Positions 21,878-61,473 of a stretch of DNA of 64,000 nucleotides are shown in pieces. Source of the stretch: Gammaproteobacteria bacterium (lineage in GTDB: Bacteria > Pseudomonadota > Gammaproteobacteria > Pseudomonadales > Azotimanducaceae). Each line of letters opens with the position of its first letter. The stretch's first letter is position 1. The notes beneath the pieces are model-generated. The model ran no database searches. It saw nothing but the letters and a program-made list of their open reading frames with translations, and was not told where the DNA came from. Made by a program: the position numbers and the translations under genes. The stretch spans positions 14,826 through 78,825 of the forward strand of contig JAPOTJ010000055.1 in assembly GCA_026709225.1 (NCBI GenBank), read 5' to 3'.

Positions 21878-21893
21878 TTGCAGGAGAAGCCAG

Positions 21894-23476: not shown

Positions 23477-23480
23477 CTCA

Positions 23481-24929: not shown

Positions 24930-25023
24930 GGTCGTGTTCACACGCCCTAAGGAAAGAGACGCATATTAAGTCGCTGATAGAATAACCGGCACACGGGAAA
25001 GCAACATGTCTTGAGAGGTGGAA

Positions 25024-37613: not shown

Positions 37614-37934
37614 TCTTCGTCCCAGTAAGTCTTGACGAGCGCGCTGATGCGAAAGGCAACTCCATCTCCTCATCATACGCGCCCGTAGCCGTCTGGTAGG
37701 CTCCCTCGGTGCCTTGTTGCCAACACACTGAAGGAACCGCGCTGGCGAGGATGGGTGAATATCCTAGCCAGTACGGTTCCCCGCTCGAAACTTGTTCACG
37801 GGAGGCAAAGTACGGCTGGCTCAATGCGGAATCAAGCGAAAATCGCACCCGCGCATGTCGCCCTGAATGCCGTTGAAGCGAAAGTGATGACGCATGTATT
37901 CCTCATGCTTTCGCTTGATCTTTCACAATAGCCG
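37614..37934. other. Region without a recognised gene
   Basis: This 321-bp stretch lies between the ATPase gene and the coiled-coil gene. A minus-strand frame from a GTG at 37848 (96 codons, running into the ATPase gene in another frame) has plausible composition (GYSPILASAVPSVCWQQG). A 33-residue piece ending DMRGCDFRLIPH overlaps it near 37930-37830. I recognise neither, so they may be debris of transferred genes. No clear promoter stands out. Confidence 0.35.
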
Positions 37935-45711: not shown

Positions 45712-45724
45712 TCTGCCTGTCCAC

Positions 45725-45744
45725 ACCTACCCAAACGGGCGGGT
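45725..45744. promoter_or_regulatory. Imperfect palindrome upstream of hyuA (putative LuxR-type operator)
   Basis: ACCTACCC and GGGCGGGT flank a four-base AAAC spacer. The core CTACCCAAACGGGCGG matches the perfect palindrome at 57877-57894 at 12 of 16 positions, including the spacer. It lies 58-77 bp before hyuA, which suits an activator site for the nearby LuxR/MalT-type regulator. Confidence 0.5.
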
Positions 45745-45801
45745 TTCTTTCCTCGGATTGCTTGTTACCCTTCTAGGTATTCGGGGCGTGATGCGCGTGA
45801 A

Positions 45802-47874
45802 ATGAACAAGGTCTTCAGGGCCGCGAGCGATGTCGGTGGCACCTTCACGGATTTGGTGCTGTACAGCTCTGGGGCTGACGGTGGCGAGGTCAAGACCTCA
45901 AAGGTTGACACCACGCCCCCGGACTTTGAGCAGGGCGTGATGGCGAGCCTGAAGAAACTCGACGTTGATCCCGCTCAACTCGATTTCTTGGCGCACGGCT
46001 CGACCGTGGTCATCAACGCCATCACTGAGCGAAAAGGCGCGAAGACCGCGCTCATCACCACCAAGGGTTTTCGCGATGTGCTTGAGATCGCGCGCGGCAA
46101 TCGTCCCGACCTGTTCAATTTCAATTTCCGCAAACCAAAGCCGTTTGTGGAGCGTTATTTGCGGCTTGAGTTACCTGAGCGGACCGACTATCACGGCACT
46201 ATACAAACGCCGGTGGACCTCTCGCCGCTCGCGGCGCAGCTCGAATTCTTGAAAGAACAGGGCATCTCGGCGATTGCTGTGGCCTTCCTGCACGCCTACA
46301 TTAACCCCGCCAACGAAGCGCGCGCGGCGGCTGAGATTCGTAGACTCTGGCCGCAAGTTTCGGTGCTCGCTTCACACGAAGTCTCACGGGAATGGCGCGA
46401 GTACGAGCGCACCAACACGACCGTTCTATCGGCCTATGTGCATCCGAACGCCGAAGCGTACATTGATCGCTTGGAAAAGTGCCTAGCGTCCGAGGGGTTC
46501 CGCGGCAACCCGTTCATGATGCAGTCGAACGGCGGCATCACCACCTCCGACGCTGCCAAGCGCAATCCTATTTCCATGGTCGAATCGGGCCCGGCGAGCG
46601 GCATTTTCGCGGCGGCGTATCTCGGTGCGCTCATCGACCAGCCCAACCTCATCGTGCTCGATATCGGCGGCACCACCGCCAAATGCGCGCTGATCGCGGA
46701 CGGCCAAGTGCGCATCAGCACCGAATATCACATTGAAAAAACGCAGAAGTCGCCGGGCTATCCGATTCAAACGCCTGTCTCGGAGATCGTCGAGATCGGC
46801 ACCGGCGGGGGTTCCATCGCGTGGGTTGACGCAGGAGGCAAGCTGCATGTCGGTCCGCAGTCCGCCGGCGCCGATCCGGGCCCGGCGGCCTATGGGCGCG
46901 GCGGCGGGCACGTCACCACCACCGACGCCAACCTGGTGCTTGCGCGCATTGACCCGGCGAGCTTTGTTGGCGGCGAAGTCGAGCCTGACTGGGATTCGAT
47001 TGACCGCGCGTTTTCGGTCTTGCAAAAGCGCTTGTCGATGAGTCGCGAAGCGGTGGCGCACGGCGTTGTGCAGATCGCCAACGCCAATATGGTCAACGCG
47101 CTGCGCCTTGTCTCCACGAACAAGGGACACGACCCGCGTGACTTCGCGCTCATCGCCTTTGGCGGCGGCGGCGCGATGCACGCCCTGCCGCTCGCCGAAG
47201 AGCTTGGTGTTCGCAAGGTCATTGTGCCCGTCAATTCATCTGTGTTCTCAGCTTGGGGGATGCTGCTGACCGATCTGCGACGAGACTATGTGCAGACCAA
47301 TCCCATGCAGTTTGAATCTGACAATTTCCCGAAGATCTTGCAGGGCTTTGCCGACCTGCAGCGTGCGGCCATTGATGCCTATCGCGGAGACGGCGTTGCG
47401 CGCACCGATGAAGACGTGAGCTTCGAGTTTCACGCGGACATGCGCTACGAGGGACAGGAACACACAGTGAAGATTGCGGTTGCGACGGGCGCTAAGCTGG
47501 CACGAGAATCATTGATGGCTGCCACCGATGTCTTCCACGCAGCGCATGAACAGCGCTATACCTACCGGCTCGACAATGCTGTACAGCTCGTCAATTTCCA
47601 TTTGGTCGCGGTTGTGTCGGTCGACAAGCCGCCGCTCGCAACGCGTGCCGTCACCGGTGCGTCACTTGAGTCGGCGAGCCTTGGAACGCGGGTCGTCGAT
47701 TTCCATCCGCACCCGCGATGTGAAGCGCGCATCTTTGACGGCAGCAAGCTCGAAGCCGGTATGCGCATCAGCGGACCGGCGGTGATTCAAGAGCGAGCCG
47801 TCACCCTGCCGGTATGGTCCGGCAACAACGTCAGTGTTGACGAATTTGGAAATTATCATGTCGAACTTGCCTGA
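45802..47874 (+). CDS. Hydantoinase/oxoprolinase subunit A (HyuA family)
   Basis: This 690-residue protein of the hydantoinase A/5-oxoprolinase family is the ATP-binding subunit of an enzyme that opens cyclic amides or ureides with ATP hydrolysis. The N-terminal domain begins FRAASDVGGTFTDLVLY. The second ATPase-type motif is IVLDIGGTTAKCALI, preceded by MVESGPASGI, and GTGGGSIAWVD follows. The full length matches family members. It forms a two-gene unit with the HyuB gene 48 bp downstream. The true substrate (hydantoin, N-methylhydantoin, oxoproline or another cyclic ureide) is not determined by sequence; cluster context favours a cyclic ureide. Confidence 0.9.
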   Translation: MNKVFRAASDVGGTFTDLVLYSSGADGGEVKTSKVDTTPPDFEQGVMASLKKLDVDPAQLDFLAHGSTVVINAITERKGAKTALITTKGFRDVLEIARGNRPDLFNFNFRKPKPFVERYLRLELPERTDYHGTIQTPVDLSPLAAQLEFLKEQGISAIAVAFLHAYINPANEARAAAEIRRLWPQVSVLASHEVSREWREYERTNTTVLSAYVHPNAEAYIDRLEKCLASEGFRGNPFMMQSNGGITTSDAAKRNPISMVESGPASGIFAAAYLGALIDQPNLIVLDIGGTTAKCALIADGQVRISTEYHIEKTQKSPGYPIQTPVSEIVEIGTGGGSIAWVDAGGKLHVGPQSAGADPGPAAYGRGGGHVTTTDANLVLARIDPASFVGGEVEPDWDSIDRAFSVLQKRLSMSREAVAHGVVQIANANMVNALRLVSTNKGHDPRDFALIAFGGGGAMHALPLAEELGVRKVIVPVNSSVFSAWGMLLTDLRRDYVQTNPMQFESDNFPKILQGFADLQRAAIDAYRGDGVARTDEDVSFEFHADMRYEGQEHTVKIAVATGAKLARESLMAATDVFHAAHEQRYTYRLDNAVQLVNFHLVAVVSVDKPPLATRAVTGASLESASLGTRVVDFHPHPRCEARIFDGSKLEAGMRISGPAVIQERAVTLPVWSGNNVSVDEFGNYHVELA

Positions 47875-47922
47875 CATACTGTCAGCGCGACTTCCATCCT
47901 CAATCACGCGAAGGGAGGTTCA

Positions 47923-49593
47923 ATGAGCGCGAGTACATTTGATCTAGAGGTCATCAAGGACTGCATCGTCGCGGTCGGTGACGAGATGTTCGAGGCGGTG
48001 ATACGCACGAGCATGAGTCCGATCATTTACGAGACGACCGACTTTGCTGTCGGCGCCACCGATGCGCGTGGCAATCTGCTCGCGCAAGGCAATGGCGTGA
48101 CGGCATTCCTTGCCACGCTCGACACGGCTGTGCAGGACCTGCTCAAGCACTATCCGAATCCGGGTGAGATTGCGCCCGGCGATGCGTTCATCACCAATAG
48201 TCCCTACAGCGGTGGAGGCACACATCTCTCCGACGTGGTGATCATCGTGCCCGTGTTTCATCAGGACAGATTGATTGCGTTTACTGTCAACAAGGCGCAC
48301 TGGACCGAAGTGGGCGGCTCGCAGCCGGGCAGCGTATCGACCGAATCGACAGAGATCTACCAGGAAGGCTTGCATTTCCGCTTCTTGAAGCTCTATTCAA
48401 AGGGCGTGCTGAACGACAGTCTTGTACAGCTCATTCGAGACAATGTGCGGCTGCCCGATTCGACTATCGGCGATATGCATTCAGGTGTGGCGGCGGCGCG
48501 TGTGGGCGCTGCGAGAATTCAAGAACTTGCCGACAAGTACGGCACCAACCTTGTTTTGAGCGCGATGGAGGATCTGCTCGACTACGGGGAGCGCATGACG
48601 CTTGAGGAAATCCGCAAACTGCCGAAGGGCCGCTATGAGGCCGAGGATGTCGTGGAGGGTGATGGACTCGGCAACGGGCCGTTCATGGTGCGCTGCGCTG
48701 TGACCATTGGTGACGATGAGATCGTGGCTGACTTTACCGGCACGAGCGAGCAGGCCGCCGGTCCAATCAATTGCGCCTACACGGGGCTGATCACCGGCGC
48801 GCGGTGCCTGTTCAAGGCCATCACCAATACCGAGATTCCGGCGAACGGCGGCTGCTTTCGCGCGCTCAAAGTCATCTGTCCGCAAGGCACGGTCATCAGC
48901 GCCGTATCGCCAGCGCCAGTGTCGCTCTACTACGAGTCGCTCATCGCTGCCATCGACGTCATGTGGAAAGCGCTCGCCTCGGTGCTCCCGGACCGGCTCT
49001 CTGCCGGACATCAGCGCACTGTGGGCGCAAACTTTATTTCCGGAAATCATCCGGACACGGACGAACTGTTCGTGCTTGGTCAGCCGCTCGTTGGCGGATG
49101 GGGCGCATCAGCCGACCTCGACGGCGACAACGGCCAGTTCTGCTGCGGCAATGGCGAAACCTTCAATATACCTGTTGAGCTCTTCGAGACGCGCTACGGC
49201 CTGCAAGTCGAGCGCTACGCTTTCCACGATGAAGCCGGCGGCGAAGGCCAGTACCGCGGCGGGCGCGGTGTCGTCTTGGACTATCGCGTCATGTCGGATG
49301 AGGTGTTTTTGACCTATGCTGCGAGCCGCACATCGGTTCGTCCCTGGGCGATCAACAACGGCGTTGAAGGCACGCACAACTATGCCAAGGTGATCCGCTC
49401 GTCGGGAGACGAAGAACGCTATTCGATGTGCACCATGGTTCGCGCCGACAAGGGCGAGTGCATTCGCCTCGTGTCGGCCACAGGCGGCGGCTACGGCAGC
49501 CCGAACAAGCGGCGCGCAGAACTCATTGAGCAGGATATTCGCAACGGTTTCCTCTCCCCGCAGCGGGCAAAGGAAGTCTATGCCTATGGTTGA
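47923..49593 (+). CDS. Hydantoinase/oxoprolinase subunit B (HyuB family)
   Basis: This 556-residue HyuB-family protein is the catalytic partner of HyuA. Family landmarks are VGDEMFEAVIRTSMSPIIYE at the start, PGDAFITNSPYSGG, FTVNKAHWTEVGG, DIMHSG-like IGDMHSGVAAARVG, FTGTSEQAAGPINC and GEGQYRGGRG. The histidines and aspartates in these loops are typical of the metal-binding core. It follows hyuA after 48 bp with AAGGGAGG before the ATG. A second HyuB-family gene lies 4 kb downstream on the other strand, without its own HyuA. Confidence 0.9.
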   Translation: MSASTFDLEVIKDCIVAVGDEMFEAVIRTSMSPIIYETTDFAVGATDARGNLLAQGNGVTAFLATLDTAVQDLLKHYPNPGEIAPGDAFITNSPYSGGGTHLSDVVIIVPVFHQDRLIAFTVNKAHWTEVGGSQPGSVSTESTEIYQEGLHFRFLKLYSKGVLNDSLVQLIRDNVRLPDSTIGDMHSGVAAARVGAARIQELADKYGTNLVLSAMEDLLDYGERMTLEEIRKLPKGRYEAEDVVEGDGLGNGPFMVRCAVTIGDDEIVADFTGTSEQAAGPINCAYTGLITGARCLFKAITNTEIPANGGCFRALKVICPQGTVISAVSPAPVSLYYESLIAAIDVMWKALASVLPDRLSAGHQRTVGANFISGNHPDTDELFVLGQPLVGGWGASADLDGDNGQFCCGNGETFNIPVELFETRYGLQVERYAFHDEAGGEGQYRGGRGVVLDYRVMSDEVFLTYAASRTSVRPWAINNGVEGTHNYAKVIRSSGDEERYSMCTMVRADKGECIRLVSATGGGYGSPNKRRAELIEQDIRNGFLSPQRAKEVYAYG

Positions 49594-49626
49594 CTGTGAA
49601 TGCCCGCAAGGATAGCCTAACTGCGC

Positions 49627-49642
49627 CTACTCGGGGCTACTC
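49627..49642 (+). promoter_or_regulatory. Direct-repeat half-sites upstream of the LuxR-type gene
   Basis: CTACTC occurs twice (49627-49632 and 49637-49642) with a four-base spacer and a 10-bp period. The half-site and spacing are those of the palindrome at 57877, but in direct orientation. It lies about 45 bp before the regulator gene, so autoregulation is possible. The six-base word is short, so chance is a real alternative. Confidence 0.35.
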
Positions 49643-49685
49643 GCTGTGCTCAGGCGGCGCTTCGGTCTGTTGAGGCACATGGTCA

Positions 49686-52427
49686 ATGAACGCGAGGACA
49701 AGCGCAAGCAATAGCGATACCGCCGCTCGGCGAGTGGTATGGGCGCTTCGTGGCAAGCTTCGTCCGCCGCTTCGATACCAGTCTGTGATTCGGCGGGTCG
49801 AACTGATCCGCTTGCTCGACGAAGTGCTGCACCATACGGCGTCGGTGCTGATTGCGCCTGCCGGATTCGGCAAAACGACCATTCTGACGCAGTGGCGCGA
49901 GCGCATGGTGAGCAAGGGCGTGAGGCTTGCCTGGCTGACCGTTGATAGTCAGGACGACGATGCCCATCGGCTCGTCTGCTATTGCATCTTCGCCCTTTCG
50001 GAAGCCGGCGTGGACTTGGGTCAGCTTGAGGGCTTCGCGCAGCAGGGACTGCACGATATTCCGCTCGAATCAGTGCTCGTTCGCATGCTTGATGCGATTG
50101 AAGAGACGAATCAAAAAGTGGCGCTGGTTCTTGATGATTATCACCGCATCGAGTCGCCGTCGATCAACGACCTATTCGACACGCTCATTGACAATGCGCC
50201 GGATAATTTTCATTTGATCATCAGTTCGAGGCAGCGGCCAGCCTTTGATCTTGAGCAGCATTTTGTCACCGGCAAGGGTATCCAGCTGGATTCGGAAACC
50301 TTGCGATTCTCCGATGCCGAGATGAACGAAGCGCTTCATGACATTGGCGACAGTGCCCTTGTGGACACGATCAAGCGCACCACCGAAGGCTGGCCGGTCG
50401 CTGTGCAACTTGCTCGGCTCGCTTACGCCGATGGCGCGTCGTTCCAGCAAGCGGCTGGCACCGGGCGCGAAGGCCACATTGCCAACTACTTCTCCGAACA
50501 GGTGGTGCGCGGCCTGGGTGATGAGCTGCAGGCGTTCTTGACGCGCACCGCGATACTTGATCAATTTAATATACAACTTGCGGGCGAGGTCTACGGTGGC
50601 AAGGATGCCGCGAAAGTCTTGGGGCAGCTGGGCGACCTTGGCGCATTGATCGTGCGGCTTGATGAGGCCGGAGAGTGGTACCGCTACCACCACTTGTTCG
50701 CTGACTTCTTGCTCAGTCGTCTCAAGGAGCGAGAACCCGAAGCCATTGCGTCACTGCACTTGCGGGCGTCGAAGTGGTTCGAGTCAGATGGCGATACGCA
50801 GCAAGCAGTGCGTCATGCGGTCGATGGGGAGGACTTGGAACGCGCGGCAGGACTCATCGAATCTGCAGGCGGCTGGGAGCTGATCCTGTTCGGTGGCATC
50901 GGCTATCTCAGAAATCTGTTGAACCTGATGCCGGCGATGAGCTTGGATGATTTTCCGCGCCTGCAAGTCGCCCAAGCTTATCTGTTGCTCAAAACTGGAA
51001 AGGTGTTTGAAGCACGCGCATGGCTCGACCGAGCGCTGCAGAACCCGATACTAACTGCCTACGACGGCGAACGCTCGGCCTGGTTCGAGAGAGATGTCCT
51101 CAATGTCGGCTGTTTGTTGCACAGCTACGAGGACGACGAACGGGCGCTGTGCCGCGCTGACTTGCCGGAGAAGATGGTGGTGCCCGGTAGCCACGCATCA
51201 GATGTGGTGACTCATGCGGTATTGGCCTGCTACCAGGTTGTCGGTGAACTCGCGGAAGGCAAGTTCGAAGCATCAAAGAACACCATTCGCAAGGCCATGC
51301 GATTCATGCGGCAAAGCAACTCGATTCTCGGCCTCAATTACTGCTACCTTCATTCTGCCGTCGCGCACTTCCATCAATGCCAAGTGAACAAGGCGCTCGC
51401 CGATGCCCAGGAAAGCAGCGCCATGGCGGCGGACAACTTTGGCAGCGACAGCGGACTGAAATCTCTCTCCGATGTGATCTTGGGCGTGTTGCTGTTTTGG
51501 CGCAATCAGATCAACGAGGAGGGCTGGCATCGATTTGAGATGGCGTTCGAGCATATCGCCAAATACGACGGCTGGTTCGACATTTATTCACTGGCACTTG
51601 AAGCATCCGTTGAGCGTGCGCTCCTGCAAGGGTGCCCTGAGGAAGCGAATCGCGCAATAGAGCGCGGTCGCAAGCTCGCGCAGGAAAAATCCATGGATCG
51701 ATTCGATGCGCACATCGATTCACTTGCGCTGACCATTGCCGTTGAATGCGAAGACTACGAGGTGCATCGCCAGTTGGCGCATGAGGTGTCGGCGCGGCAC
51801 GCCATCGGCGCGTGGCAAGATCGTCCCTTCGTGTGGCGAAACCATGTCTATCGGGCATTGGCGCTCGCAAGCAACTTCGCCTCGCAGGAGCCCTCGAGAA
51901 GCCTTCTGCTGCTGCGCGATGCCATTGAGTGCTGTCGCCGAATCGGCGCGCGCTTCTGGCTGATTCGTCTACGTGCGGCGCAGGCGACGCTGCTTGACCA
52001 GAACGGCGAGCGTCAGCGAAGCATTGATGCGCTCTCCAAAGCCCTCGAGCTGGCGCGCCCGGAAGAGCTGCTCACAGCGGTCGCCCGCCCAAGAGCGATT
52101 CTTGGCACGCTTCGACATGCGCAACGTCATTGGCGGAGGGAACCGGGCAACACGGCAACGCGCCGGTTCGCAGGCGAAGCCATCAACCTGCTGCAGCACT
52201 ATGCCAATATCGAGTCCGCGCACCTTGATGATCAGGTTTCCCTCAGCCCTCGCGAAATGGAAGTCCTCTGGGAGCTGTCTCTTGGGCGTTCAAACAAGCA
52301 AATCGCCCGCGCGCTCTACATGACCGAGCACACGGTGAAATATCATCTGAAGAACGTGTTTCGCAAGCTTTCGGTGAATCGACGCACCGAAGCGCTCAAG
52401 GTCGCGCATGAAGCAGGGCTCATTTAG
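49686..52427 (+). CDS. MalT/LAL-type LuxR-family transcriptional regulator
   Basis: This large ATP-dependent regulator has 913 residues. An N-terminal STAND-type NTPase begins with LRGKLRPPLRYQSVIRRVEL and Walker A IAPAGFGKTT (about 56-65), with LVLDDYHRIES as Walker B. A long TPR-like helical middle (about 350-820) precedes a C-terminal LuxR HTH (about 845-910) with LSPREMEVLWELSLGRSNKQ. MalT-like proteins oligomerise on binding an inducer and ATP and then activate catabolic operons. Set between hyuAB and the transport operons, it is the obvious local activator. The inducer is presumably the pathway substrate. Its 3' end overlaps the convergent MFS gene by 8 bp. Confidence 0.9.
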   Translation: MNARTSASNSDTAARRVVWALRGKLRPPLRYQSVIRRVELIRLLDEVLHHTASVLIAPAGFGKTTILTQWRERMVSKGVRLAWLTVDSQDDDAHRLVCYCIFALSEAGVDLGQLEGFAQQGLHDIPLESVLVRMLDAIEETNQKVALVLDDYHRIESPSINDLFDTLIDNAPDNFHLIISSRQRPAFDLEQHFVTGKGIQLDSETLRFSDAEMNEALHDIGDSALVDTIKRTTEGWPVAVQLARLAYADGASFQQAAGTGREGHIANYFSEQVVRGLGDELQAFLTRTAILDQFNIQLAGEVYGGKDAAKVLGQLGDLGALIVRLDEAGEWYRYHHLFADFLLSRLKEREPEAIASLHLRASKWFESDGDTQQAVRHAVDGEDLERAAGLIESAGGWELILFGGIGYLRNLLNLMPAMSLDDFPRLQVAQAYLLLKTGKVFEARAWLDRALQNPILTAYDGERSAWFERDVLNVGCLLHSYEDDERALCRADLPEKMVVPGSHASDVVTHAVLACYQVVGELAEGKFEASKNTIRKAMRFMRQSNSILGLNYCYLHSAVAHFHQCQVNKALADAQESSAMAADNFGSDSGLKSLSDVILGVLLFWRNQINEEGWHRFEMAFEHIAKYDGWFDIYSLALEASVERALLQGCPEEANRAIERGRKLAQEKSMDRFDAHIDSLALTIAVECEDYEVHRQLAHEVSARHAIGAWQDRPFVWRNHVYRALALASNFASQEPSRSLLLLRDAIECCRRIGARFWLIRLRAAQATLLDQNGERQRSIDALSKALELARPEELLTAVARPRAILGTLRHAQRHWRREPGNTATRRFAGEAINLLQHYANIESAHLDDQVSLSPREMEVLWELSLGRSNKQIARALYMTEHTVKYHLKNVFRKLSVNRRTEALKVAHEAGLI

Positions 52428-53769
52428 CGGCGCTCTTCCAAGTGTCCTTGGCGAAGTGCAGGCTCTTCTCGAAAGGCTTGATGCCAAGGAATAGTGCGCA
52501 CGCGGCAAGGGCGGAGGCGCCGAGTCCCACGGCCGCCATGGCGTAGCGCAGGTCTTCGGGGTGTCCAAACACCTGCTCGGTGAGCACCGCGACCAGCGAC
52601 GGGCCGATCCCGATGCCAATGAGGTTCACTGGAAAGAGATAGAGGAGGGCTGAGACCTGTCCGCGCAGCTCGTTCGGGGTGAATTGCTGCAGGGACGAGA
52701 CGGCGAGGCCCCAGGGCGCCGCAGAAAAGAACACCATCGGCACCATGACGAGCAGCGCAGCTTCGGCGGTCGCCATCAAAGGAAAGGCTGCTGCGGGAAG
52801 GAGCGTTCCAACAGCGCACCATGCAGCCGTGATCAATGCGCTCGACTCGTGGCCTCTGGCGCGAAACTTATCGGCGATCCATCCGCCTGTATAGATGCCG
52901 CCGGCGCCGAAGATCAGCAGTATCGTGCCGTAGGCGGTGCCCGCCTCAACGATAGTCCAGCCATAGGTGCGCGTGAGAAAGCTCGGCGTCCATAAGGCCA
53001 TGCCGTTGACCATGACGCCCAAGCAGCCGAATCCACAGGCATGGCAGGCGAATGTGCGCCAATTGGCAGCGACGAACTGCCGGAACTCGCGGAAAGGCAC
53101 TGGTTTGACGGTGTCGTTACCGCCGTGAAGTCGCCCTTTTCGGTAGGGTTCGCGTACTGTGAGCAGCAGGAGCAGCAGCAATGCGCCGGGCGCGGCGACG
53201 ACAAAGAATGCAACTTGCCAGGCATGGACATGCCCGATCACAGGCAGATGCAGATCTGGGCTGTCTCCGATAAGACTGAGTACGCCAGCGCCGACAAGAT
53301 AGGAAATCCCGAAGCCCATATAGGTGCCCATCACATAGGTGCTGATGCCGCGAGCAAGCTTGTCCTCCGGAAAGTAGTCGGTGATGATCGAGTAGGCGGC
53401 GGGATTGAGCGCCGCCTCACCGATGCCGACACCCATTCTTGCCAGGAAGAAACTCCAGAAGTTTTTGACCAGGCCGCAGGCTGCGGTCATCAGGCTCCAG
53501 AAAGCGACGCCGACGGCGACCACACCGACACGATGATGGCTGTCGGCATAGCGGCCGATCGGATAGCCCATGAAGGAATAGAAGACCGCGAAGGCAAATC
53601 CGTGCAGGAGACTGATTTGGAAGTCCGAAAAGCCCATGTCCGTTCTGATTGGGTCCACGAGCAGCGTCAATATGGAGCGGTCCACATACGAGAGGATGTA
53701 GGCGAGCATGAGCACGGCCACGACATACCAGTATTGGAAGGGTCTGTATGTGGGCGGCTCCCGCTTCAC
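52420..53769 (-). CDS. MFS transporter
   Basis: This 449-residue major facilitator has about 12 membrane helices. The first begins QYWYVVAVLMLAYILSYVDRSIL, and the conserved loop 2-3 motif appears as YPIGRYADSHHRVG. The N-terminal VDRSIL pattern resembles sugar-acid/organic-anion carriers of the ACS/spinster type. It is the last gene of the minus-strand unit TonB receptor-HyuB-MFS, with 9 bp to the HyuB stop. It probably moves the substrate or a product across the inner membrane. Confidence 0.9.
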   Translation of the reverse strand: MKREPPTYRPFQYWYVVAVLMLAYILSYVDRSILTLLVDPIRTDMGFSDFQISLLHGFAFAVFYSFMGYPIGRYADSHHRVGVVAVGVAFWSLMTAACGLVKNFWSFFLARMGVGIGEAALNPAAYSIITDYFPEDKLARGISTYVMGTYMGFGISYLVGAGVLSLIGDSPDLHLPVIGHVHAWQVAFFVVAAPGALLLLLLLTVREPYRKGRLHGGNDTVKPVPFREFRQFVAANWRTFACHACGFGCLGVMVNGMALWTPSFLTRTYGWTIVEAGTAYGTILLIFGAGGIYTGGWIADKFRARGHESSALITAAWCAVGTLLPAAAFPLMATAEAALLVMVPMVFFSAAPWGLAVSSLQQFTPNELRGQVSALLYLFPVNLIGIGIGPSLVAVLTEQVFGHPEDLRYAMAAVGLGASALAACALFLGIKPFEKSLHFAKDTWKSAAK

Positions 53770-53778
53770 GGTCGGCGA

Positions 53779-55464
53779 CTAGGCGATGTGCGTGTCAAAC
53801 TCTGCGTCGTCGGCGCGCACACCGTAGCCGCGCGCTTCGTCAGACGTGATGTAGCCGTTGCGCAGATCGTCGTGGATATGTTCGAGCCTCCGACTCGAAG
53901 GCGCGCCGAGTCCGCCGCCGTTGCCGGTGAGAATACGCACCACGTCGCCGCGCGCGAGTTCAAGATTTGTCACTTCGCCGTAAGGCTCGCGCTCTCCTGT
54001 CGCGCGCAGGATTTCCAAGCGGTTGCCGGTGCCGCTTTCTCCGCCTAAGAGCCCCCACGGCGGGCTTTTGTGCCGCGTGTAGCCAGCCGTCACCCAGCCT
54101 CGCTCGCCAACGATGCGATACCTCAAATCAATGCCTTTGCCGCCGCGAAATTCTCCGGCGCCTGTTGGCTCCGGATTGAGCGCATAGCATTCGACATGAA
54201 TCGCATTGCGCCGCTCGTTGACTTCCACCGGGCAATTGAACGTGTCGCCGTGCGAGTATGAGAACTGCGCATTGTCACCGTCCCAGCCGAGTCCTGCGCC
54301 CCAGCCGCCGACCTCCGGCTCAACCAATGTGTGTTCTGCTCCCTTGTGATCGAGCGCGCGAATCACGGTCGAGCAAATTGAAGAGAAGTGGCCTGCGGGC
54401 ACGACGTCGGGCATGTGGGGTGCGAGCGTTTTGCACAGGAGATCCGTACAGCGGATCTTGTTTTCGTAATAGAGCCCAACCGCAGCAGGGCGAAGCGCGT
54501 GAAAGATTGAACCTGGGCGGGTCAGCAGCCTGAGCGGGCGAAAGCAGCCGGCATTCGCCCATGGTTCCGGCAGCGTGATGGCTTTGAACACGGCTTGGGC
54601 GCTGATTTCAGTTGCTTCGCGCGTGCCGTTGATCGGCCCCTTCTCCTGATCTGGATTGTCGCGAAGGTCAATGACCATTTCCCGGTCAGAGATATGAATG
54701 GTCGCGTTGATCATTCGGCCATCGTCAAGACGGTCATGGCCGTGAAACTCGCCGTGCGGAAGCGCTTTCAGGCCGCTCAAAGCCATCGCCTCGCCATAAT
54801 CCATGTAGCGCCTGACCGCTGCAATATAGGCGCGTGTCCCGTATTTCTCGCACAGCTCGATGACTCTTTTCTCGCCGAGGCGCAGCGCCGCGAGGCCAGC
54901 CCACAGATCGCCAAGCGCCTGCTCAGGCAAACGACTATTGGCTCGGATAATCGAAAACACGCTGCCGATCGGCTTGCCGCCGTCGAACAGCCTGACTGTT
55001 GGCAGCAGCAGCCCTTCTTGGAAGATCTCGGTGGCGCTCGGCGACATTGAGCCGGGCACCATGCCGCCGATATCGACGAGGTGCCCTTTGCTCGCGGTCC
55101 ACGCGACGATCTGGTTGTCAACAAACACCGGCTGGCAGAGCACCACATCGTTTGCGTGACTGACGCCTCCGTTGTAGGGGTCGTTTGAAATGAACACGTC
55201 GCCCGCTTGCAGCGGCGCCAGCTCCGGGCTGTTCAATACAGCTCGCACGGCGGGCGCGAGCATGCTCACGAAGCCGGGAATGCCAGCACCAGCGCTGGCA
55301 AGATTGCCTTCCCCGTCGGTGATGGCGACGCCGAAATCGAGCACTTCATAGATCACCGAGCTCATCGCGGCTTGCGCCATGGCGACGAACATCTCTCGCG
55401 AGGCCGCCGACAGCGCGCCCGCAATCACGTCTTGAGTAAAGGCGTCCTCTGTTTGCGCAGGCAA
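53779..55464 (-). CDS. Second HyuB-family protein
   Basis: This 561-residue hydantoinase B/oxoprolinase-family protein has the same landmarks as the one at 47.9 kb. These include AAMSSVIYEVLDFGVAITDG, AGDVFISNDPYNGGVSHAND, ASKGHLVDIGGMVPGS, GDLWAGLAALRLGEKR and GEFRGGKGIDLRYR. It is clearly divergent from the first copy and not a recent duplicate. There is no HyuA gene beside it, so it must share the HyuA at 45.8 kb or act alone. It sits between the TonB receptor gene and the MFS gene in one operon. Confidence 0.9.
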   Translation of the reverse strand: MPAQTEDAFTQDVIAGALSAASREMFVAMAQAAMSSVIYEVLDFGVAITDGEGNLASAGAGIPGFVSMLAPAVRAVLNSPELAPLQAGDVFISNDPYNGGVSHANDVVLCQPVFVDNQIVAWTASKGHLVDIGGMVPGSMSPSATEIFQEGLLLPTVRLFDGGKPIGSVFSIIRANSRLPEQALGDLWAGLAALRLGEKRVIELCEKYGTRAYIAAVRRYMDYGEAMALSGLKALPHGEFHGHDRLDDGRMINATIHISDREMVIDLRDNPDQEKGPINGTREATEISAQAVFKAITLPEPWANAGCFRPLRLLTRPGSIFHALRPAAVGLYYENKIRCTDLLCKTLAPHMPDVVPAGHFSSICSTVIRALDHKGAEHTLVEPEVGGWGAGLGWDGDNAQFSYSHGDTFNCPVEVNERRNAIHVECYALNPEPTGAGEFRGGKGIDLRYRIVGERGWVTAGYTRHKSPPWGLLGGESGTGNRLEILRATGEREPYGEVTNLELARGDVVRILTGNGGGLGAPSSRRLEHIHDDLRNGYITSDEARGYGVRADDAEFDTHIA

Positions 55465-55505
55465 GCGCGAATGACTCGTTCAGTCAGTTCAAAAAGGCCG
55501 AGCGA

Positions 55506-55703
55506 TCAGAAGTTGTAGCGCATGTCCATGCGCCAGACTCTTGGCTGCCCCGGGTGCAGGAATAGCGGCGTCACGACTTCGGAATTGTATTCCTCGTCCG
55601 CCGCATTATTGACATAGAGCGATGTGGTCCAGCGCTCGCCTTCGAGGCCGATTCTCAAGTTCACGAGTTCCAAGTCGTCCCTTGGGAAATCGTTTTCCGG
55701 TGT
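55506..55703 (-). other. In-frame continuation of the TonB receptor after an amber codon
   Basis: After the TAG at 55704-55706 the same frame continues for 65 codons, encoding the expected last strands of a TonB-dependent receptor (DDLELVNLRIGLEGERWTTS, ADEEYNSEVV, and the terminal VWRMDMRYNF with the C-terminal aromatic residue). The stop TGA is at 55506-55508. One base change from TGG (Trp) to TAG explains the interruption. Without this part the barrel cannot close normally. Confidence 0.75.
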
Positions 55704-57827
55704 CTAGTACTGCTTGCCACGGCGCTCGTAGTCCACACGGGCGAACCACGTCAGGCCATTGCCGACGGGGTATTCGATACGCGCACCGGCGTTAAAGGTG
55801 CTATCCGGCACGTAGGGCAGGTCGTTGCCGACCGTCGCTGGGCGCTCCTGATATGCGGTGATCTCGGCGTTGGTGAGGCCGTAGGCGGCGTAGATGTCCA
55901 AATTGTCAGTTGCGCGCCATGCGGCTTCGACTTCAAACCCATCAAGCTCGGCTTCATCGACATCTTCGAACACCTGCACGAACGCGAGGCCGTCGAAGGG
56001 GAAGTATTGCGTGTTGTCCACTTTGGAGGTGAACAGTGCGGCGTTGAGCCTGATCGAACCGTTGTCCCACTTTGCGCCGACTTCAAAGGTGTTGTTCTCT
56101 TCCTGTTCGATGGCTTCGTTCGCGGTCGTGCTGATGATGCCGACGCCTGGGTAGTTGAACTGGCCGGCGCGGTAGCCGATCCCCCAGCTTGCGTAGACGT
56201 TCAGCTCGTCTGTCACAAGGTAGCCGAGCGTCACCTTCGGCTGAAACTTGCTGAACTCCTTCTTGTTGGCATCGCTGCCCGGGCGAGTATTGGCAAGCAG
56301 TTCAGTCCAAGTGTCGTAGGCGCCGCAGTTGACGTTCGCGATGCCTCCGTCTTCACATGCCGCTGCGCCATATGGCTGGTTCACGCCGGACGCATCGGCC
56401 GTGGTGTAGACGCGACCCGCCGTGTTGTACGGGTTGACGTTCTGTTCGCGGGTCTCTTTGTCGTAGCGTCCGGCCAGGGTCAAGGTGAGGGGGTCTGTGA
56501 TCTGCCAATCGATGCTCCCGAACACCGCCCATGCGTAGCTATCCTCGAGAAACGCGAGGAAGTTCCCGGGCGCAACGCCGGTCGGATTGGTGCTGTCGTC
56601 GAACTCAGGCACGGTGACGGAGCGTTTGATGCCTTGGCCCTTGTCGATACCGGTCACGGTGGTGCGCTGCCGTTCCCATGACAGGTAATAGGCGCCGACT
56701 TGCCAGCCAATTCGACTGTCCGAATTCGATGTCAGGCGAAGTTCTTGACTCCAGCCTTCGACATCGACGTAGCTGTGCTGCGTGCCATCATCGAACCCGG
56801 AAAAATAGGGTGCCGCGTCGACGGTGGACGAGGCTTCGAGCTCATCGTAGGTGGTCACCGACTTGAAGTCGGCAAAGTCGAACGACTTGTCGATCTTGAC
56901 TGAGAACGAGAGCATATCGCGCGTGCCGCGATCAGGGTTGTTGGCTACGTAGGGGATGCCGGTCAAGTTGGCGCCTTCGCTCATCACCTGCTCCCCCGTC
57001 ACGCCGAGTTCGGGGATCGGCACGCCAAACAGCGCGATGCCCGGCCAATGGAAGCCGATCGCCTTGCCGTCGTGCTTGCTGACCTCGCCTTTGAAGTCAA
57101 TGGCAAGGGTTTCTTCAGGGGTGTAGGTGAGGCGACCTCGCAATGTGCGGTCATGATAGGGGTCCACATCCTCGTCAATCGTGATGTTGGTGAAATAGCC
57201 GTCTCGCTGCACCATGCGCCCCGAGAGCCGAAAGGCGAGGTTGTCGGCGAGCGGCCCGCTGTAGGAACCTTGGACGCCAACTTCGTCTTTCGTTCCATAG
57301 CTGAGTTTGATATGGCCTTCAGGCTCGAAGCTCGGCGCTTTGGTGGTGACGATAATGGCGCCGTTCGCTGCGTTGCGGCCATAGAGCGCGCCTTGCGGAC
57401 CTTTGACGACTTCAATCTGCTCGACGTCAAACACTTGACCGATGTACTGGCGCGGATTGACTGTCAGCACACCGTCCACGACGACCGCCACCGGCAATTC
57501 TCCGTTTCGCACCCGGCTTAAGCCCCGAACTGTCAGGAAAGACGTGCCGATTGTTTGTGATTCGGCGAGCGTGACATTTGGAATCAACTGAATGTAATCG
57601 GCGGTCTGCGTGACGCCAGCATCGTCAAGCTGCGCTTCGGTCATGGCATTGACGGTAATCGGCGCTTCTTGGATGCTCTCATCCATTTTTCTTGCGGTCA
57701 CGACAATCTCTTCGAGCGGGGATTGCTGAGCCGCGAGCTGCCCAGCCAACGCGACGCACAGGGCGACAAGGCTGTAGCAGACGTAGTGAAAGGCGCGAAA
57801 TGTTGCTCTCATGATACTGGCCCCCAT
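55704..57827 (-). CDS. TonB-dependent outer-membrane receptor, interrupted by an in-frame TAG
   Basis: This outer-membrane receptor imports a substrate using TonB energy. A signal peptide (about 1-34, core SLVALCVALAGQLAAQ) is followed by the TonB-box region PLEEIVVTARK, the plug domain (about 50-160, with GPQGALYGRNAANGAI) and the barrel. The read part has 707 residues and ends RRGKQY at a TAG. A further 65 in-frame codons downstream complete the barrel. The gene is therefore either a recent nonsense mutant or carries a sequencing error. It heads the operon with HyuB and MFS and is divergent from the NCS1 permease, so it likely brings in the cluster's substrate. Confidence 0.88.
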   Translation of the reverse strand: MGASIMRATFRAFHYVCYSLVALCVALAGQLAAQQSPLEEIVVTARKMDESIQEAPITVNAMTEAQLDDAGVTQTADYIQLIPNVTLAESQTIGTSFLTVRGLSRVRNGELPVAVVVDGVLTVNPRQYIGQVFDVEQIEVVKGPQGALYGRNAANGAIIVTTKAPSFEPEGHIKLSYGTKDEVGVQGSYSGPLADNLAFRLSGRMVQRDGYFTNITIDEDVDPYHDRTLRGRLTYTPEETLAIDFKGEVSKHDGKAIGFHWPGIALFGVPIPELGVTGEQVMSEGANLTGIPYVANNPDRGTRDMLSFSVKIDKSFDFADFKSVTTYDELEASSTVDAAPYFSGFDDGTQHSYVDVEGWSQELRLTSNSDSRIGWQVGAYYLSWERQRTTVTGIDKGQGIKRSVTVPEFDDSTNPTGVAPGNFLAFLEDSYAWAVFGSIDWQITDPLTLTLAGRYDKETREQNVNPYNTAGRVYTTADASGVNQPYGAAACEDGGIANVNCGAYDTWTELLANTRPGSDANKKEFSKFQPKVTLGYLVTDELNVYASWGIGYRAGQFNYPGVGIISTTANEAIEQEENNTFEVGAKWDNGSIRLNAALFTSKVDNTQYFPFDGLAFVQVFEDVDEAELDGFEVEAAWRATDNLDIYAAYGLTNAEITAYQERPATVGNDLPYVPDSTFNAGARIEYPVGNGLTWFARVDYERRGKQY

Positions 57828-57876
57828 TAAATTCGAGCATGGTCTCCAAGACTATCTGCCATCAAATTGGCTTTGC

Positions 57877-57894
57877 ACTACTCAAACGAGTAGT
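57877..57894. promoter_or_regulatory. Perfect palindrome between the divergent transport operons
   Basis: ACTACTC-AAAC-GAGTAGT is a perfect 7-bp inverted repeat with a 4-base spacer, in the 120-bp region between the TonB receptor and permease genes. LuxR-type HTH proteins bind two-fold sites of about this size. A degenerate copy with the same spacer lies upstream of hyuA. It is the best candidate for the operator shared by both operons. Confidence 0.6.
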
Positions 57895-57947
57895 TTTCGC
57901 CATATTTCAGGAATTCGTCGGGTGAGTTGTTCTACAGTGCCAGCACG

Positions 57948-59237
57948 ATGACTCGCACCGTGTCACTTCAGTCCGACGATTTTGCGCTCAAAGCTGTGCC
58001 TCAGGAGGCGAGCGCGAGCGGGCTGCACCTTGCGCTGATCATTGTCGGTGGCACGATCGGCTTTGCCGTCTATGTGATCGCCGCGCAAATTGGCGGTTCG
58101 CTCGGATATGCGCAGGCAGCGGTTGCGTTCGCGGTGGGGAGCCTGATCCTCGGTGTCATGGGCGCTTGGACATCCTATGTGGGCGCAAAGTCGCGCTTTT
58201 CGACTTATCTGCTGACGCAATTCGCCTTTGGTCCTCGTGGTGCGAAGCTCGCCAATGTGGCGGTCGCCGTGTCGCTTGTCGGATGGTACGGGGTCATCAG
58301 CAACACCCTCGGCACGGCCTCGCAGCAGATGCTTCTCGAGGCATTGGCGATCGAGGTGTCGCCTTACTTGACCGTGAGCATTGCCAGTGCGCTGATGATT
58401 GCGATCACAGCGCTCGGATTCACCGGCATTGATCGGCTCGCGCTGTTCATGGTGCCGTTCATGCTCCTGTTCATGGTGCTCGCCGCGTGGCTCGCGATCA
58501 CAGGTGGCAACGGCGAGTTTTTGGACATCGAGCAGCGGTTTTCGATGCCGACAGCGATCTCGGCTGTCGTCGGCACCTACATCGCCGGCGTCATCATTCA
58601 GCCCGACTACAGTCGCTTCGCGGTCAACACAAGACATGCCATCTGGTCGGTGTTCATCGCGCTCGGCGTGGCATTTCCGCTGATTCAGTACCTCGCGGCG
58701 GTGCCGAGCATGGCGCTCGGCGAGCCGGACATCGTGCGCATGCTGGCCTTGATCGGCTTTCTTGTCCCAGGGTTTTTTCTGATGTTTCTTGGCGCTTGGG
58801 CCAGCAATGTGCTGTGCCTCTACTCTGCAGGGCTCTCCTTCGCAACGCTGCTCACGAGACTGAAGCGCGTCCGCCTGCCACATATTATTGTGGTCATAGG
58901 CATCTTCGGCACCGCGCTCGCATTTATTCCGGCGCAGACCTATATCGTTGATTACCTTGTTGTGCTGGGCGTCGCCATCCCCCCGATCGGCGCGATCTAC
59001 ATCATCGACGCCATGTTCATCCGCAGATTCTCGATGCAGATTGAATCTCTCGATGAAGAGCCATCAATCAGATGGACAGCGTTGATCGCCTGGCTTTTCG
59101 CGGCAGTCGCCGGGTATCTGACGAGCGAGACGAGTTTCCAGCTCGTGGGCATTGCGGCCATTGACTCGTTAATCGTGGCAAGCGTCCTGTTCTCGTTGCT
59201 TGAGGTTCGGCGTATTCGCGCTGCGCGCGCCGGATAA
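57948..59237 (+). CDS. NCS1-family purine/cytosine/hydantoin-type permease
   Basis: This 429-residue inner-membrane permease of the nucleobase-cation-symport-1 family has about 12 hydrophobic helices. The opening LHLALIIVGGTIGFAVYV, LILGVMGAWTSYVGAKSRFST and YGVISNTLGTA patterns resemble CodB-like members. The family includes Mhp1, the hydantoin permease, which fits the neighbouring hydantoinase-type genes. The ATG at 57948 is preferred over a TTG seven codons upstream. It is the first gene of the plus-strand unit permease-avidin-like-racemase. Confidence 0.88.
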   Translation: MTRTVSLQSDDFALKAVPQEASASGLHLALIIVGGTIGFAVYVIAAQIGGSLGYAQAAVAFAVGSLILGVMGAWTSYVGAKSRFSTYLLTQFAFGPRGAKLANVAVAVSLVGWYGVISNTLGTASQQMLLEALAIEVSPYLTVSIASALMIAITALGFTGIDRLALFMVPFMLLFMVLAAWLAITGGNGEFLDIEQRFSMPTAISAVVGTYIAGVIIQPDYSRFAVNTRHAIWSVFIALGVAFPLIQYLAAVPSMALGEPDIVRMLALIGFLVPGFFLMFLGAWASNVLCLYSAGLSFATLLTRLKRVRLPHIIVVIGIFGTALAFIPAQTYIVDYLVVLGVAIPPIGAIYIIDAMFIRRFSMQIESLDEEPSIRWTALIAWLFAAVAGYLTSETSFQLVGIAAIDSLIVASVLFSLLEVRRIRAARAG

Positions 59238-59251
59238 TCGGCCAACAGGTC

Positions 59252-60112
59252 GTGACCGCAACCGAATCGCCCATCCAAGGAACCTGGTACAACGCCTTTT
59301 GCTCTCGCTTGGACCTCTCGGTGAGCGAGACTGGTCGTATCAGCGGGTTCTACACGTCGCATACGGGCAGCACCGGCACGTCCGCGCTGCTTGGTCAACT
59401 TGACGTTGGAGCCGCTGTGACGGGGCAAGCGGGAACGCCATTCGCACTCGGTATTCAATGGCGCCTGATCAACGAAGATCAATCGAACGCCGACGGGAGT
59501 TGGCATTGGGTGTCTATGTTCGCTGGGCAATATCATCCGCAGCAGCGGGTGTCCAAGCCGGGGCAAACGCCATACACTCTCCCCGAGACGCTCGAGATAT
59601 TGAACCTTCTCATTGCCACTGCCACCCTCCCTGGGCTCGCCGACACTGCGCCGGTCACATGGCCGCAGACACTTGATTTTCATCGATCACCGCCTGAGTA
59701 CTACCAAGGCGCTCTGCCCGGCGAGCCGGTGCTCTATACGCCAACGGCTGCCGACAATGTGAGCGGTGCGTGGCTGAGTTCGGACGGTGAGCGACTCGAT
59801 CTCAGGTCCGACTTTGCGGCTGGTCAAGTGACTGGCAGCTATACCGATGCCGACGGCGTAGGCTTCGATGTCGTCGGTCTTGTCGATACGCTCGCGCCTG
59901 CGGTGGAACGCTCCGTGAGTTGGCAAGGGGTGACGCTCTCTCTGATGCAATCGAATTCTCGCGGCCGCAAGCAGTTGAAAGTGCTCGCTGGCGGCGTTGA
60001 TTATCGGGATACGCGCAACATGTCTCTTTGGTCGAGCGATCTGCGATCGACAAGTTGGACAGACAGATTCGTGCAGCAGAGCTTGCGAGCATCACACTTC
60101 ACCAGACGGTGA
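59252..60112 (+). CDS. Tandem avidin-like domain protein
   Basis: The first half of this 286-residue protein matches the avidin/streptavidin pattern. GTWYN (10-14) is followed by a serine at 18, GFYTSHTGS (32-40) with Tyr and Ser where streptavidin has Y43 and S45, then ALGIQW (65-70) and FAGQY (90-94). The second half repeats the start of the fold: SGAWLSSDGERLDL (171-184), GSYTDADGVG (195-204), and SVSW (221-224). Streptavidin's W108 and W120 have no clear counterparts. No signal peptide is visible, unlike most avidins. The GTG start is 14 bp after the permease stop. Biotin binding is not certain. The location suggests binding of a cyclic ureide, inferred from biotin's ureido ring. Confidence 0.7.
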   Translation: MTATESPIQGTWYNAFCSRLDLSVSETGRISGFYTSHTGSTGTSALLGQLDVGAAVTGQAGTPFALGIQWRLINEDQSNADGSWHWVSMFAGQYHPQQRVSKPGQTPYTLPETLEILNLLIATATLPGLADTAPVTWPQTLDFHRSPPEYYQGALPGEPVLYTPTAADNVSGAWLSSDGERLDLRSDFAAGQVTGSYTDADGVGFDVVGLVDTLAPAVERSVSWQGVTLSLMQSNSRGRKQLKVLAGGVDYRDTRNMSLWSSDLRSTSWTDRFVQQSLRASHFTRR

Positions 60113-60203
60113 ACGTTGACTTCCTGCTCGTTTGGGCAGGTGACATGCGCTGCTTCGCGTGGGTAGAGTCTCCCTCGCATGGCACGATCTTTGGGAGGCT
60201 CAT

Positions 60204-61040
60204 ATGTCGATGGATACCAGCATCAAAGTCTTGTACGTCAATCCTGTTGGGTTTCCGGCGTATGACCAGGTCTTCGCGGACATGGCAAGCAAGTACAAGT
60301 ACCCCAACACCGCTGTGGATGTCGCGTCGCTCAATCCGGCGAACGTGTCGCCGAAAATGACCGATTTGGAATTTCGCGCCTATGAGTCGCTGATCATCGC
60401 CGACACCGTCAAGGCGGCGCGTCAAGCATCGAAAGATGGGTACGACGCGATGATTATCGGTTGCTTCTACGACCCTGCCTTGGCTGATGCGCGTGAAATA
60501 TCAGGAGAGACTGTTGTAGTTGCGCCGTGTCAAGCCTCTACCACAGCGGCGCTCAATATCGCGAACAGCTTTGGGGTCATCATCGGCGAGCCGAAATGGG
60601 AAGATCAAATGCGTACTGCGGTGTATGAATATGGCTACCGGGATAAGTGCGCAGGGTTTCGGGACGTGGGGCTGCGCGTGGAGCAATTTCACGACGATCC
60701 ATCGAACACCAAGAAGTTGCTAGAAACCGCGGCGGTCGATGCTGTGCGCGTTGACAAGGCCGAGTCGATCATATTGGGCTGCACCTTGGAGGTTGGCTTC
60801 TTTGAAGACTTGCAGACCTATCTATTTGATCGATTCAAGGCATGGATACCAGTGATCGACAGCTCCATCGCTTCGCTCAAAGCCGCTGAGAATGCGGCGC
60901 TGCAGAAAAAGTTCGGCTGGAAGAATAGCCGCATGTGGGGCATGTCGGCACCGCCTGAAGATGAGTTAGCGAAGTTCGAGATCTTTCAGGATGAATATCA
61001 GTGGGGCAATATCATTCACGTCGCGGCTGACGGCAGTTAA
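60204..61040 (+). CDS. Asp/Glu/hydantoin racemase family protein
   Basis: This 278-residue protein of the Asp/Glu/hydantoin racemase superfamily interconverts stereoisomers by a two-base mechanism using paired cysteines. Both are visible: C87 in MIIGCFYDPALADARE and C193 in SIILGCTLEVGF. The opening IKVLYVNPVG is typical of hydantoin-racemase-type members. The ATG at 60204 is preceded by GGGAGG, whereas a longer frame upstream lacks support. It is the last gene of the permease operon. Racemisation of a 5-substituted hydantoin, or a similar ureide, before ring opening is the expected role. Confidence 0.88.
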   Translation: MSMDTSIKVLYVNPVGFPAYDQVFADMASKYKYPNTAVDVASLNPANVSPKMTDLEFRAYESLIIADTVKAARQASKDGYDAMIIGCFYDPALADAREISGETVVVAPCQASTTAALNIANSFGVIIGEPKWEDQMRTAVYEYGYRDKCAGFRDVGLRVEQFHDDPSNTKKLLETAAVDAVRVDKAESIILGCTLEVGFFEDLQTYLFDRFKAWIPVIDSSIASLKAAENAALQKKFGWKNSRMWGMSAPPEDELAKFEIFQDEYQWGNIIHVAADGS

Positions 61041-61363
61041 GGCATCAGGCGCGTACTGACCGCACCGAAAGGAGATTGCTGCGCAGTGCCAGCGAAATAG
61101 GTACCCAGTGTGCGTGCGAATCCCTCGAAGTCGTTCGCTTCAAGCTGTTTGAGCAATCCTTCAAACAATGACTCGTTGCAGTCGAACAGTTCGCGAATGG
61201 TGTCAAGGAGCAGGCTTTTGCCGAAGCGACGTGGGCGGGACAGGAAAAAATAACGTCCTTGGTCAGTGATCTCTTTGACAAGCTGCGTCTTGTCCACGTA
61301 GATACAGCCGTCCTCCCGAAGGTTTCTGAAGGACTGAATGCCAATCGGAAGGCGGCGATTCAT
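61037..61363 (-). pseudogene. Truncated AAA-ATPase-like relic
   Basis: The N-terminus is that of the predicted AAA-ATPase/DUF1703 family (MNRRLPIGIQSFRNLREDG, YVDKTQLV, then FFLSRPRRFGKSLLLDTI with the P-loop-like RFGKSLLL). After about 70 residues it jumps to a C-terminal fragment (LEANDFEGFARTLGTYFAG) and stops at 109 residues. Intact members have about 500. The nuclease-like second domain is lost, so this is a remnant. Its 3' end overlaps the racemase stop by four bases. Confidence 0.7.
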
Positions 61364-61473
61364 CGTATGTCGCACCTCAATGATTGCTGTAAATGGCAGC
61401 ATGGGATTCGGTGGTGCCCTTTGCAAGCTCGCGGCGGAGCGCTTTTTTCTCGTTGTCGTGCTTGGGAGGCGTT

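Follow-up and report, generated by a model that had tools for sequence, protein, structure and literature searches.

To our knowledge, regulators of the LAL family, the MalT-like, large ATP-binding members of the LuxR family, are numerous, and few of them have a defined operator. The family has been termed poorly studied in the accessible part of one source (PMC3282765). Among the closest described systems is the MalT-type regulator ACSP50_3915 of Actinoplanes sp. SE50/110, for which 17 transcript starts are described as having a palindrome (TCATCC-5 nt-GGATGA) at their -35 position, and this palindrome ends 34.4 +/- 1.0 bases before the start of the transcript; deletion of ACSP50_3915 lowers transcription, and the region has been rearranged between species while the palindrome stays (PMC7567727). 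For NarL of Escherichia coli, the corresponding source, as excerpted, reports that a single site 32 bp upstream of the -10 element (centre at -44.5) suffices for activation (PMC9314961). Open-licence PMC papers searched for hydantoinase with LuxR/MalT, for hydantoin utilization regulators, and for avidin-like proteins with hydantoinase yielded none on the regulon considered here.

The DNA analysed (the window, a stretch of 64,000 nucleotides, G000:C107:14826-78825) belongs to a host genome of 3,085,532 bases in 111 contigs and carries a hydantoinase cluster, a set of genes for the import and ring opening of small cyclic molecules. By Pfam, a plus-strand block with hyuA, hyuB1, and the gene for a 913-residue MalT-like LuxR-family regulator is followed by a minus-strand block with an MFS transporter, a second hyuB, and a TonB-dependent receptor (TBDR); after the TBDR gene, the plus strand encodes an NCS1 permease, an avidin-like protein, and an Asp/Glu/hydantoin racemase:

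45802..47874, plus strand: hyuA, hydantoinase A/oxoprolinase family (Pfam)
47923..49593, plus strand: hyuB1, hydantoinase B (Pfam)
49686..52427, plus strand: MalT-like LuxR-family (LAL) regulator, the proposed binder (Pfam GerE HTH; MalT the best NCBIfam model)
52420..53769, minus strand: MFS transporter, in the TBDR operon (Pfam)
53779..55464, minus strand: hyuB2, second hydantoinase B, in the TBDR operon (Pfam)
55704..57827, minus strand: TonB-dependent receptor, gene 1 of the operon behind the putative central operator (Pfam)
57948..59237, plus strand: NCS1 permease (Pfam Transp_cyt_pur), its control by the central operator being uncertain
59252..60112, plus strand: avidin-like protein, matching avidin in its N-terminal part and with what seems to be a second avidin-type repeat
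60204..61040, plus strand: Asp/Glu/hydantoin racemase (Pfam), start at the ATG 60204 from sequence and homologues

The closest NCBIfam models of the hyu genes (45802-55464) are caprolactamase subunits, all below cut-off (caprolactamase alpha in the case of hyuA). The same stretch holds a single hyuA yet two divergent hyuB genes, and both hyuB genes are kept in the related loci L061-L065 and L138. The avidin-like protein (59252-60112), which may bind a substrate with a biotin-like ring, has a 56% identical homologue (L189:2063-2917) that adjoins a racemase gene in genome G467 too; among 97 genomes searched (its own included), no carrier was found besides the window genome and G467. Elsewhere in the window, a protein of 1777 residues that combines Mrr-type nuclease and helicase domains (25018-30351) and a protein with AAA_15/AAA_21 domains (36105-37676) are possibly encoded by defence genes, and two cytochrome P450 genes together with short-chain dehydrogenases and a glutathione transferase (17623-24449) form a possible catabolic island.

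The initial annotation had tied this cluster into one regulon of four units through a shared operator-like motif. The sites discussed below, including one that it did not contain, are as follows:

57877..57894, no strand: putative central operator, perfect dyad ACTACTC-AAAC-GAGTAGT, conserved before the TBDR gene in relatives
57849..57854, minus strand: TAGTCT, a hexamer resembling a -10 element, in the TBDR promoter at a distance of 22 bp to the operator
45726..45743, plus strand: putative operator of the hyuA promoter, CCTACCC-AAAC-GGGCGGG, conserved in L061, L063, and L065
45766..45771, plus strand: -10-like hexamer TACCCT of hyuA, 22 bp past the operator
60123..60140, plus strand: putative third operator before the racemase gene, CCTGCTC-GTTT-GGGCAGG, with 17 of 1000 shuffles as good
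60164..60169, plus strand: TAGAGT, a hexamer resembling a -10 element, in the racemase promoter at a distance of 23 bp to the operator
49627..49642, plus strand: direct repeat CTACTC-GGGG-CTACTC from the initial annotation, probably no functional site

The perfect palindrome is present where it had been claimed, reading ACTACTCAAACGAGTAGT with perfect arms. Perfect 7-4-7 palindromes are common in the window (11, where 20 dinucleotide shuffles average 6.75), and symmetry by itself is thus no evidence for a site; judged by comparison with relatives, the conserved feature at 57877-57894 is rather the ACTACTC arms at that place. When the TBDR promoters of the window and of L061, L063, L138, and L171 are aligned on the site, 13 of the 14 arm bases are identical, whereas the flanks agree at only 5-9 of 30 bases upstream and 6-9 of 30 downstream, and the 22-base spacer at 7-8 positions. 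A pattern scan of 57700-58050 found neither a sigma-70-like promoter nor a terminator pattern. The description of this palindrome as lying between divergent transport operons holds up on the TBDR side; the NCS1 side, where no TANNNT hexamer resembling a -10 element stands at 22 bp, is uncertain.

Upstream of hyuA, the related palindrome with the AAAC spacer was likewise found as described, the interval 45725-45744 containing CTACCCAAACGGGCGG, which matches the core at 12 of 16 positions. On its own this site is weak and not significant, with 119 of 1000 shuffles of the upstream region matching the CTACTC palindrome equally well, but it is supported by comparison with L061, L063, and L065, in which 16 of its 18 bases are identical, while the flanks share 8-13 of 30 bases upstream and 7-8 of 30 downstream. 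The half-site repeat reported before the MalT/LuxR-type gene exists as a sequence (CTACTCGGGGCTACTC, the sole exact direct repeat of its kind in the window and no palindrome) but did not survive as a site: inspection by eye revealed no counterpart upstream of the regulator gene in the five orthologous loci, and the repeat looks accidental. No dyad before the regulator gene rises above background (24 of 400 simulations for the best one). The third site, which the initial annotation lacked, occupies the 91-bp gap before the racemase gene, and the 17 shuffles listed for it equal its match to CTACTC-N4-GAGTAG; a dyad is also found at the racemase promoters of the relatives. With 8-10 of 14 arm bases shared, the sites at the racemase genes are the weaker ones.

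Relatives with an orthologous cluster comprise L061-L065, obtained by a regulator search of named genomes, and the held-out genome G614 (locus L188); they are close to one another and count as one lineage for most purposes. In L061-L065, the regulator is 59-60% identical to that of the window. One strand carries hyuA, hyuB1, an NCS1 gene, and the regulator gene, and the opposite strand MFS, hyuB2, TBDR, and racemase genes, followed by a divergent NCS1 gene (in L062, this last gene, divergent from the racemase gene, has no NCS1 match). A ACTACTCGGAAGTGTAGT dyad before the TBDR gene, CCCACTCGAAAGAGTAGT or near variants between the racemase gene and its divergent neighbour, and CCTGCCCAAACGGGTGGG before hyuA were each found in 5 of 5 loci; the TBDR and racemase dyads show 1-3 mismatches to CTACTC-N4-GAGTAG, and for each of these ten regions 0 to 14 of 1000 shuffles are as good. 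A second group, the genus g33 (loci L138, L171, and L172; regulator about 34% identical), has the order regulator, hyuA, hyuB, NCS1, and then a TBDR gene divergent from racemase, hyuB2, and MFS genes. There, ACTACTCGCATTAGTAGT lies between the TBDR and racemase genes in L138 and L171 (0 of 1000 shuffles each), and CCTACCC[GA]AATTGATAGT precedes the regulator gene in all three loci.

Two held-out cases, G614 and G467, were both found after the motif had been fixed. All four composite sites (dyad plus -10-like hexamer, see below) are in place in G614, and in G467, a member of g33, ACTACTCGCACGAGTAGT stands upstream of the TBDR gene (L196) with 14 of 14 arm bases as in the window. In G467 (L172 and L196/L197), the matches to the regulator and to the TBDR are each split in two, pointing to frameshifts or to errors in assembly. 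Overall, versions of the dyad recur before TBDR, racemase, and NCS1 permease genes and the hyuA operon across the six genomes with an orthologous cluster (regulator 59-60% identical) and three g33 genomes, that is, before several cluster units in more than one lineage, as a cluster-local regulon demands. On this comparative evidence, the central and hyuA dyads are real and conserved even though the gene order differs and the flanks match only at chance level. Absence of the motif upstream of orthologous operons, or an equal frequency at unrelated promoters, had been named beforehand as speaking against a shared operator; both were looked for, and the motif passed.

The dyads also keep a distance. 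Across 35 site-directions (the window, L061-L065, L188 of G614, L138, L171, and L172, both directions being counted where genes flank the site on either side), the distance from the dyad to TANNNT is exactly 22 bp in 24 cases, 23 bp in 2 (the window racemase and the L062 TBDR genes), 24 bp in 1, and 38 bp in 1, with none at the remaining offsets within 8 to 44. Close relatives repeat each other in this full set, and a subset with one locus per lineage has 6 of 11 at 22 bp. The hexamer is missing at 22 bp on the NCS1 side in the window, before the L062 gene opposite the racemase gene, and in either direction from the dyad between the TBDR and racemase genes of g33; at the operon site of g33, this distance is taken by TATAGG, which is not TANNNT, in 3 of 3 loci. 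If the hexamer is set at -12 to -7, the dyad spans -52 to -35 with its centre at -43.5, so that, apart from these exceptions, an operator at the -35 position stands at a fixed distance from the -10 element as in class II promoters. No recognizable -35 sequence was seen at these promoters (by eye throughout, and by pattern scan at the central site only). Around the L061-type dyad between racemase and NCS1 genes, a -10-like hexamer stands 22 bp away to either side in 4 of the 5 loci as well as in G614, and one dyad could therefore serve two promoters.

The perfect ACTACTC palindrome occurs once in the host genome, in which matches that allow up to 3 mismatches show no enrichment, with 51 places versus 177 for a reversed control pattern. 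The composite dyad-N22-TANNNT (up to 1 mismatch) gave 21 matches in G000 and the five L061-L065 genomes, 20 of them in the cluster and 1 a stray in G101; since 11 matches to the reversed control turn up in these six genomes, it is the location of the matches, not their number, that carries weight, and matches in the window and L061-L065 are partly circular, these sequences having served to derive the pattern. The host genome itself has 2 composite matches, both in the cluster, versus 2 for the control pattern. With zero mismatches, the composite was found in the 206 genomes of the window's family at the 2 window sites and at 9 others in 7 genomes; these 9 (205 other genomes) compare to 7 for the control and hence represent background. 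With host composites in the cluster and the family at background, the motif is not equally frequent at unrelated promoters, again as befits a cluster-local regulon. In the family of L063, 5 of 9 genomes possess the regulator, and the four that lack it have no cluster-type sites (two of them contain a total of 3 strays, and the other two are free of matches). Composite sites are absent from G001, and a scan of 97 relatives with CTACTCAAACGAGTAG (up to 2 mismatches) showed no enrichment over control.

Several further matches were discarded on inspection. One of the three next-best matches in the host genome (C109:47220, L143) lies inside a cobalamin riboswitch, as does a CTACTC-type match in the same-genus genome G001 (L033); the match in G580 is within the open reading frame of an AMP-binding enzyme, and those in L163, L165, and L166 neighbour genes without a link to hydantoinase genes. 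A stem of the cobalamin riboswitches (L143 5072-5259 and L033 1479-1666) mimics CTACTC...GAGTAG and represents a trap for motif scans.

Eight distant clusters that combine a LAL gene with hydantoinase genes (regulator about 25-35% identical) were scanned with a weight matrix that includes the window's own sites. A good dyad in the tested gap was found in 2 of 8, L142 and L161, between the regulator gene and hyuA, without TANNNT at 22 bp; L139, L140, L141, L173, L174, and L175 have no dyad above background in the gaps tested. Since six of the eight thus lack it there, the operator is not common to the LAL family as a whole. The dyads between the distant LAL gene and the hyuA-like gene (L142 7344-7361 and L161 8074-8091) are of the ACTACYC type.

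The regulator encoded in the window (913 residues) ends in a LuxR/GerE helix-turn-helix (HTH) (PF00196, E=7.5e-17, residues 852-907), whereas its matches to AAA_22, nSTAND_NTPase5, and TPR_MalT are below the Pfam gathering scores. Its best NCBIfam model is MalT, with 301.5 bits over residues 23-909, which is below the cut-off of the E. coli MalT equivalog (NF003420, 537 bits). The HTH is identical at 53 of 56 positions to that of L061 and to that of L063 (95%), versus 57% for residues 1-845, and at 31 of 56 positions to that of L138, versus 32% for the rest; its solved relatives include NarL and ComA. The LAL protein is also the sole regulator among the genes common to the clusters. The proposal that a LuxR-type HTH protein is the binder is strengthened to this extent, the sole conserved candidate having a conserved HTH. 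The proposal of one shared regulon stands insofar as one operator family links hyuA and the TBDR operon; the count of four units does not, because the direct repeat before the regulator gene is unsupported as a site. The regulator gene is more likely part of the hyuA-hyuB transcript (92-bp gap) than a unit of its own, and in g33 the operon behind the site begins with it. Its position within the hyuA unit, or at its head, implies autoregulation.

We thus propose, with a probability of roughly 0.8, that the MalT-like LuxR-family (LAL) regulator encoded in the cluster uses the dyads as its operators, in class II activation. What the DNA shows directly is where the sites lie, that they are conserved, how they are spaced, and that they are confined to the cluster; for the binder, the activation, and the inducer, we infer the following. 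The LAL protein would be switched on, presumably by ATP and a pathway metabolite, and a dimer of its C-terminal HTHs would bind the 18-bp dyad, for which we suggest the consensus ACTACYC-N4-GRGTAGT, grading to CCTRCCC-N4-GGGYRGG. Each dyad would abut the -35 position, 22-23 bp upstream of TANNNT and centred near -43.5, from where the bound activator would recruit RNA polymerase to promoters with a usable -10 element; as a recognizable -35 sequence is lacking, the polymerase would depend on this activator. In the window, the three sites would serve hyuA-hyuB1-regulator (positive autoregulation), TBDR-hyuB2-MFS, and the racemase gene, and in close relatives one dyad would fire the racemase and NCS1 permease genes in opposite directions.

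These dyads could instead be operators of another, unlinked regulator, with the LAL protein controlling something else or acting elsewhere. The LAL protein is, after all, only presumed to be the binder, the boxes of the type member MalT (GGA[TG]GA in the excerpted text; PMC9628970) are unlike the dyad, and 6 of the 8 distant clusters lack a dyad in the gaps tested. An unlinked regulator would, however, normally have sites elsewhere, whereas the host composite is confined to the cluster and the rest of the family is at background; the four regulator-less genomes of the L063 family and G001 are devoid of cluster-type sites, no second regulator is encoded among the conserved genes, and the LAL HTH is conserved far above the rest of the protein. 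We consider this explanation unlikely. Markedly less probable still is a repressor role, with the LAL protein or a different factor bound to the dyads. A repressor would also block transcription from sites touching the -35 position, and the LAL protein SCO6993 of Streptomyces coelicolor is described to repress via palindromes in the available text (PMC9628970). A repressor needs no fixed spacing, whereas the constant 22-23 bp together with a poor -35 is typical of activator-dependent promoters, and MalT-type and NarL activators are reported, in the parts of the sources at hand, at the same distance (PMC7567727, PMC9314961).

Hardly any weight falls on chance palindromes, RNA hairpins, or terminators without a regulatory role, even though perfect 7-4-7 palindromes exceed expectation in the window (11 versus 6.75) and two other CTACTC-type matches (G001 and the host genome) turned out to be cobalamin riboswitch stems. 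Identical arms recur at orthologous promoters of rearranged clusters, Rfam has no match in 45000-62000, and no terminator pattern was found at 57700-58050; such a reading is refuted for the TBDR and hyuA sites unless their conservation is an artefact.

Beyond activation by the cluster's own LAL protein, a broader picture may be sketched, which we regard as tentative and on balance doubtful: a self-contained LAL regulon to scavenge and open a cyclic ureide or lactam, in which a NarL-like dyad, 2 bp shorter, would drive class II promoters, in relatives firing two divergent promoters symmetrically from a single dyad with 22 bp on each side, and a dyad logic that may reach other LAL-hydantoinase clusters (a dyad between the regulator gene and hyuA being seen in 2 of the 8 distant clusters). 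The presence of an avidin-like protein may point to a substrate with a biotin-like ring. The analysis provides one LAL regulator of uncultured gammaproteobacteria with a putative consensus, a promoter geometry of fixed distances, and a delimited set of targets, and it groups hyuA, two hyuB genes, TBDR, MFS, and racemase genes as one physiological unit, which would aid the search for the substrate. The control itself would be well made but ordinary for bacteria, of a known kind and without surprise.

How the locus relates to known systems may be summed up as follows. With E. coli MalT, the window regulator shares a C-terminal LuxR HTH and may share an NTP-binding N-terminus and a TPR-like middle (the matches to the latter two being below gathering scores), but MalT boxes are GGA[TG]GA hexamers and not an ACTACYC dyad (PMC9628970). 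SCO6993 resembles it as a LAL protein with palindromes and a site at its own promoter, binding in the window being presumed, and differs from the proposal made here as a repressor whose sites, in the available text, have no common consensus (PMC9628970). The NarL 7-2-7 sites, exemplified by the engineered site TACCCCTAAAGGGGTA, share with the window dyads an inverted repeat with outward TAC and a GerE-type HTH dimer (proposed for the window) (PMC4549865), and the dyad centre lies 31 bp upstream of the -10 element, as compared to 32 bp for the NarL site (PMC9314961). In contrast to NarL, the window has TAC-N8-GTA instead of TAC-N10-GTA, that is, 2 bp less (PMC4549865), and its sites are not inverted heptamers 2 bp apart; moreover, NarL is a phosphorylated response regulator and the window regulator presumably a large LAL-type ATPase. 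With ACSP50_3915, finally, the window system has in common a LAL-type regulator gene within the region of its sites, a palindrome at -35, and a rearranged cluster, while its arms are ACTACYC with a spacer of 4, and ACSP50_3915 is actinobacterial and governs a 51-gene region, the window system being known from sequence alone (PMC7567727).
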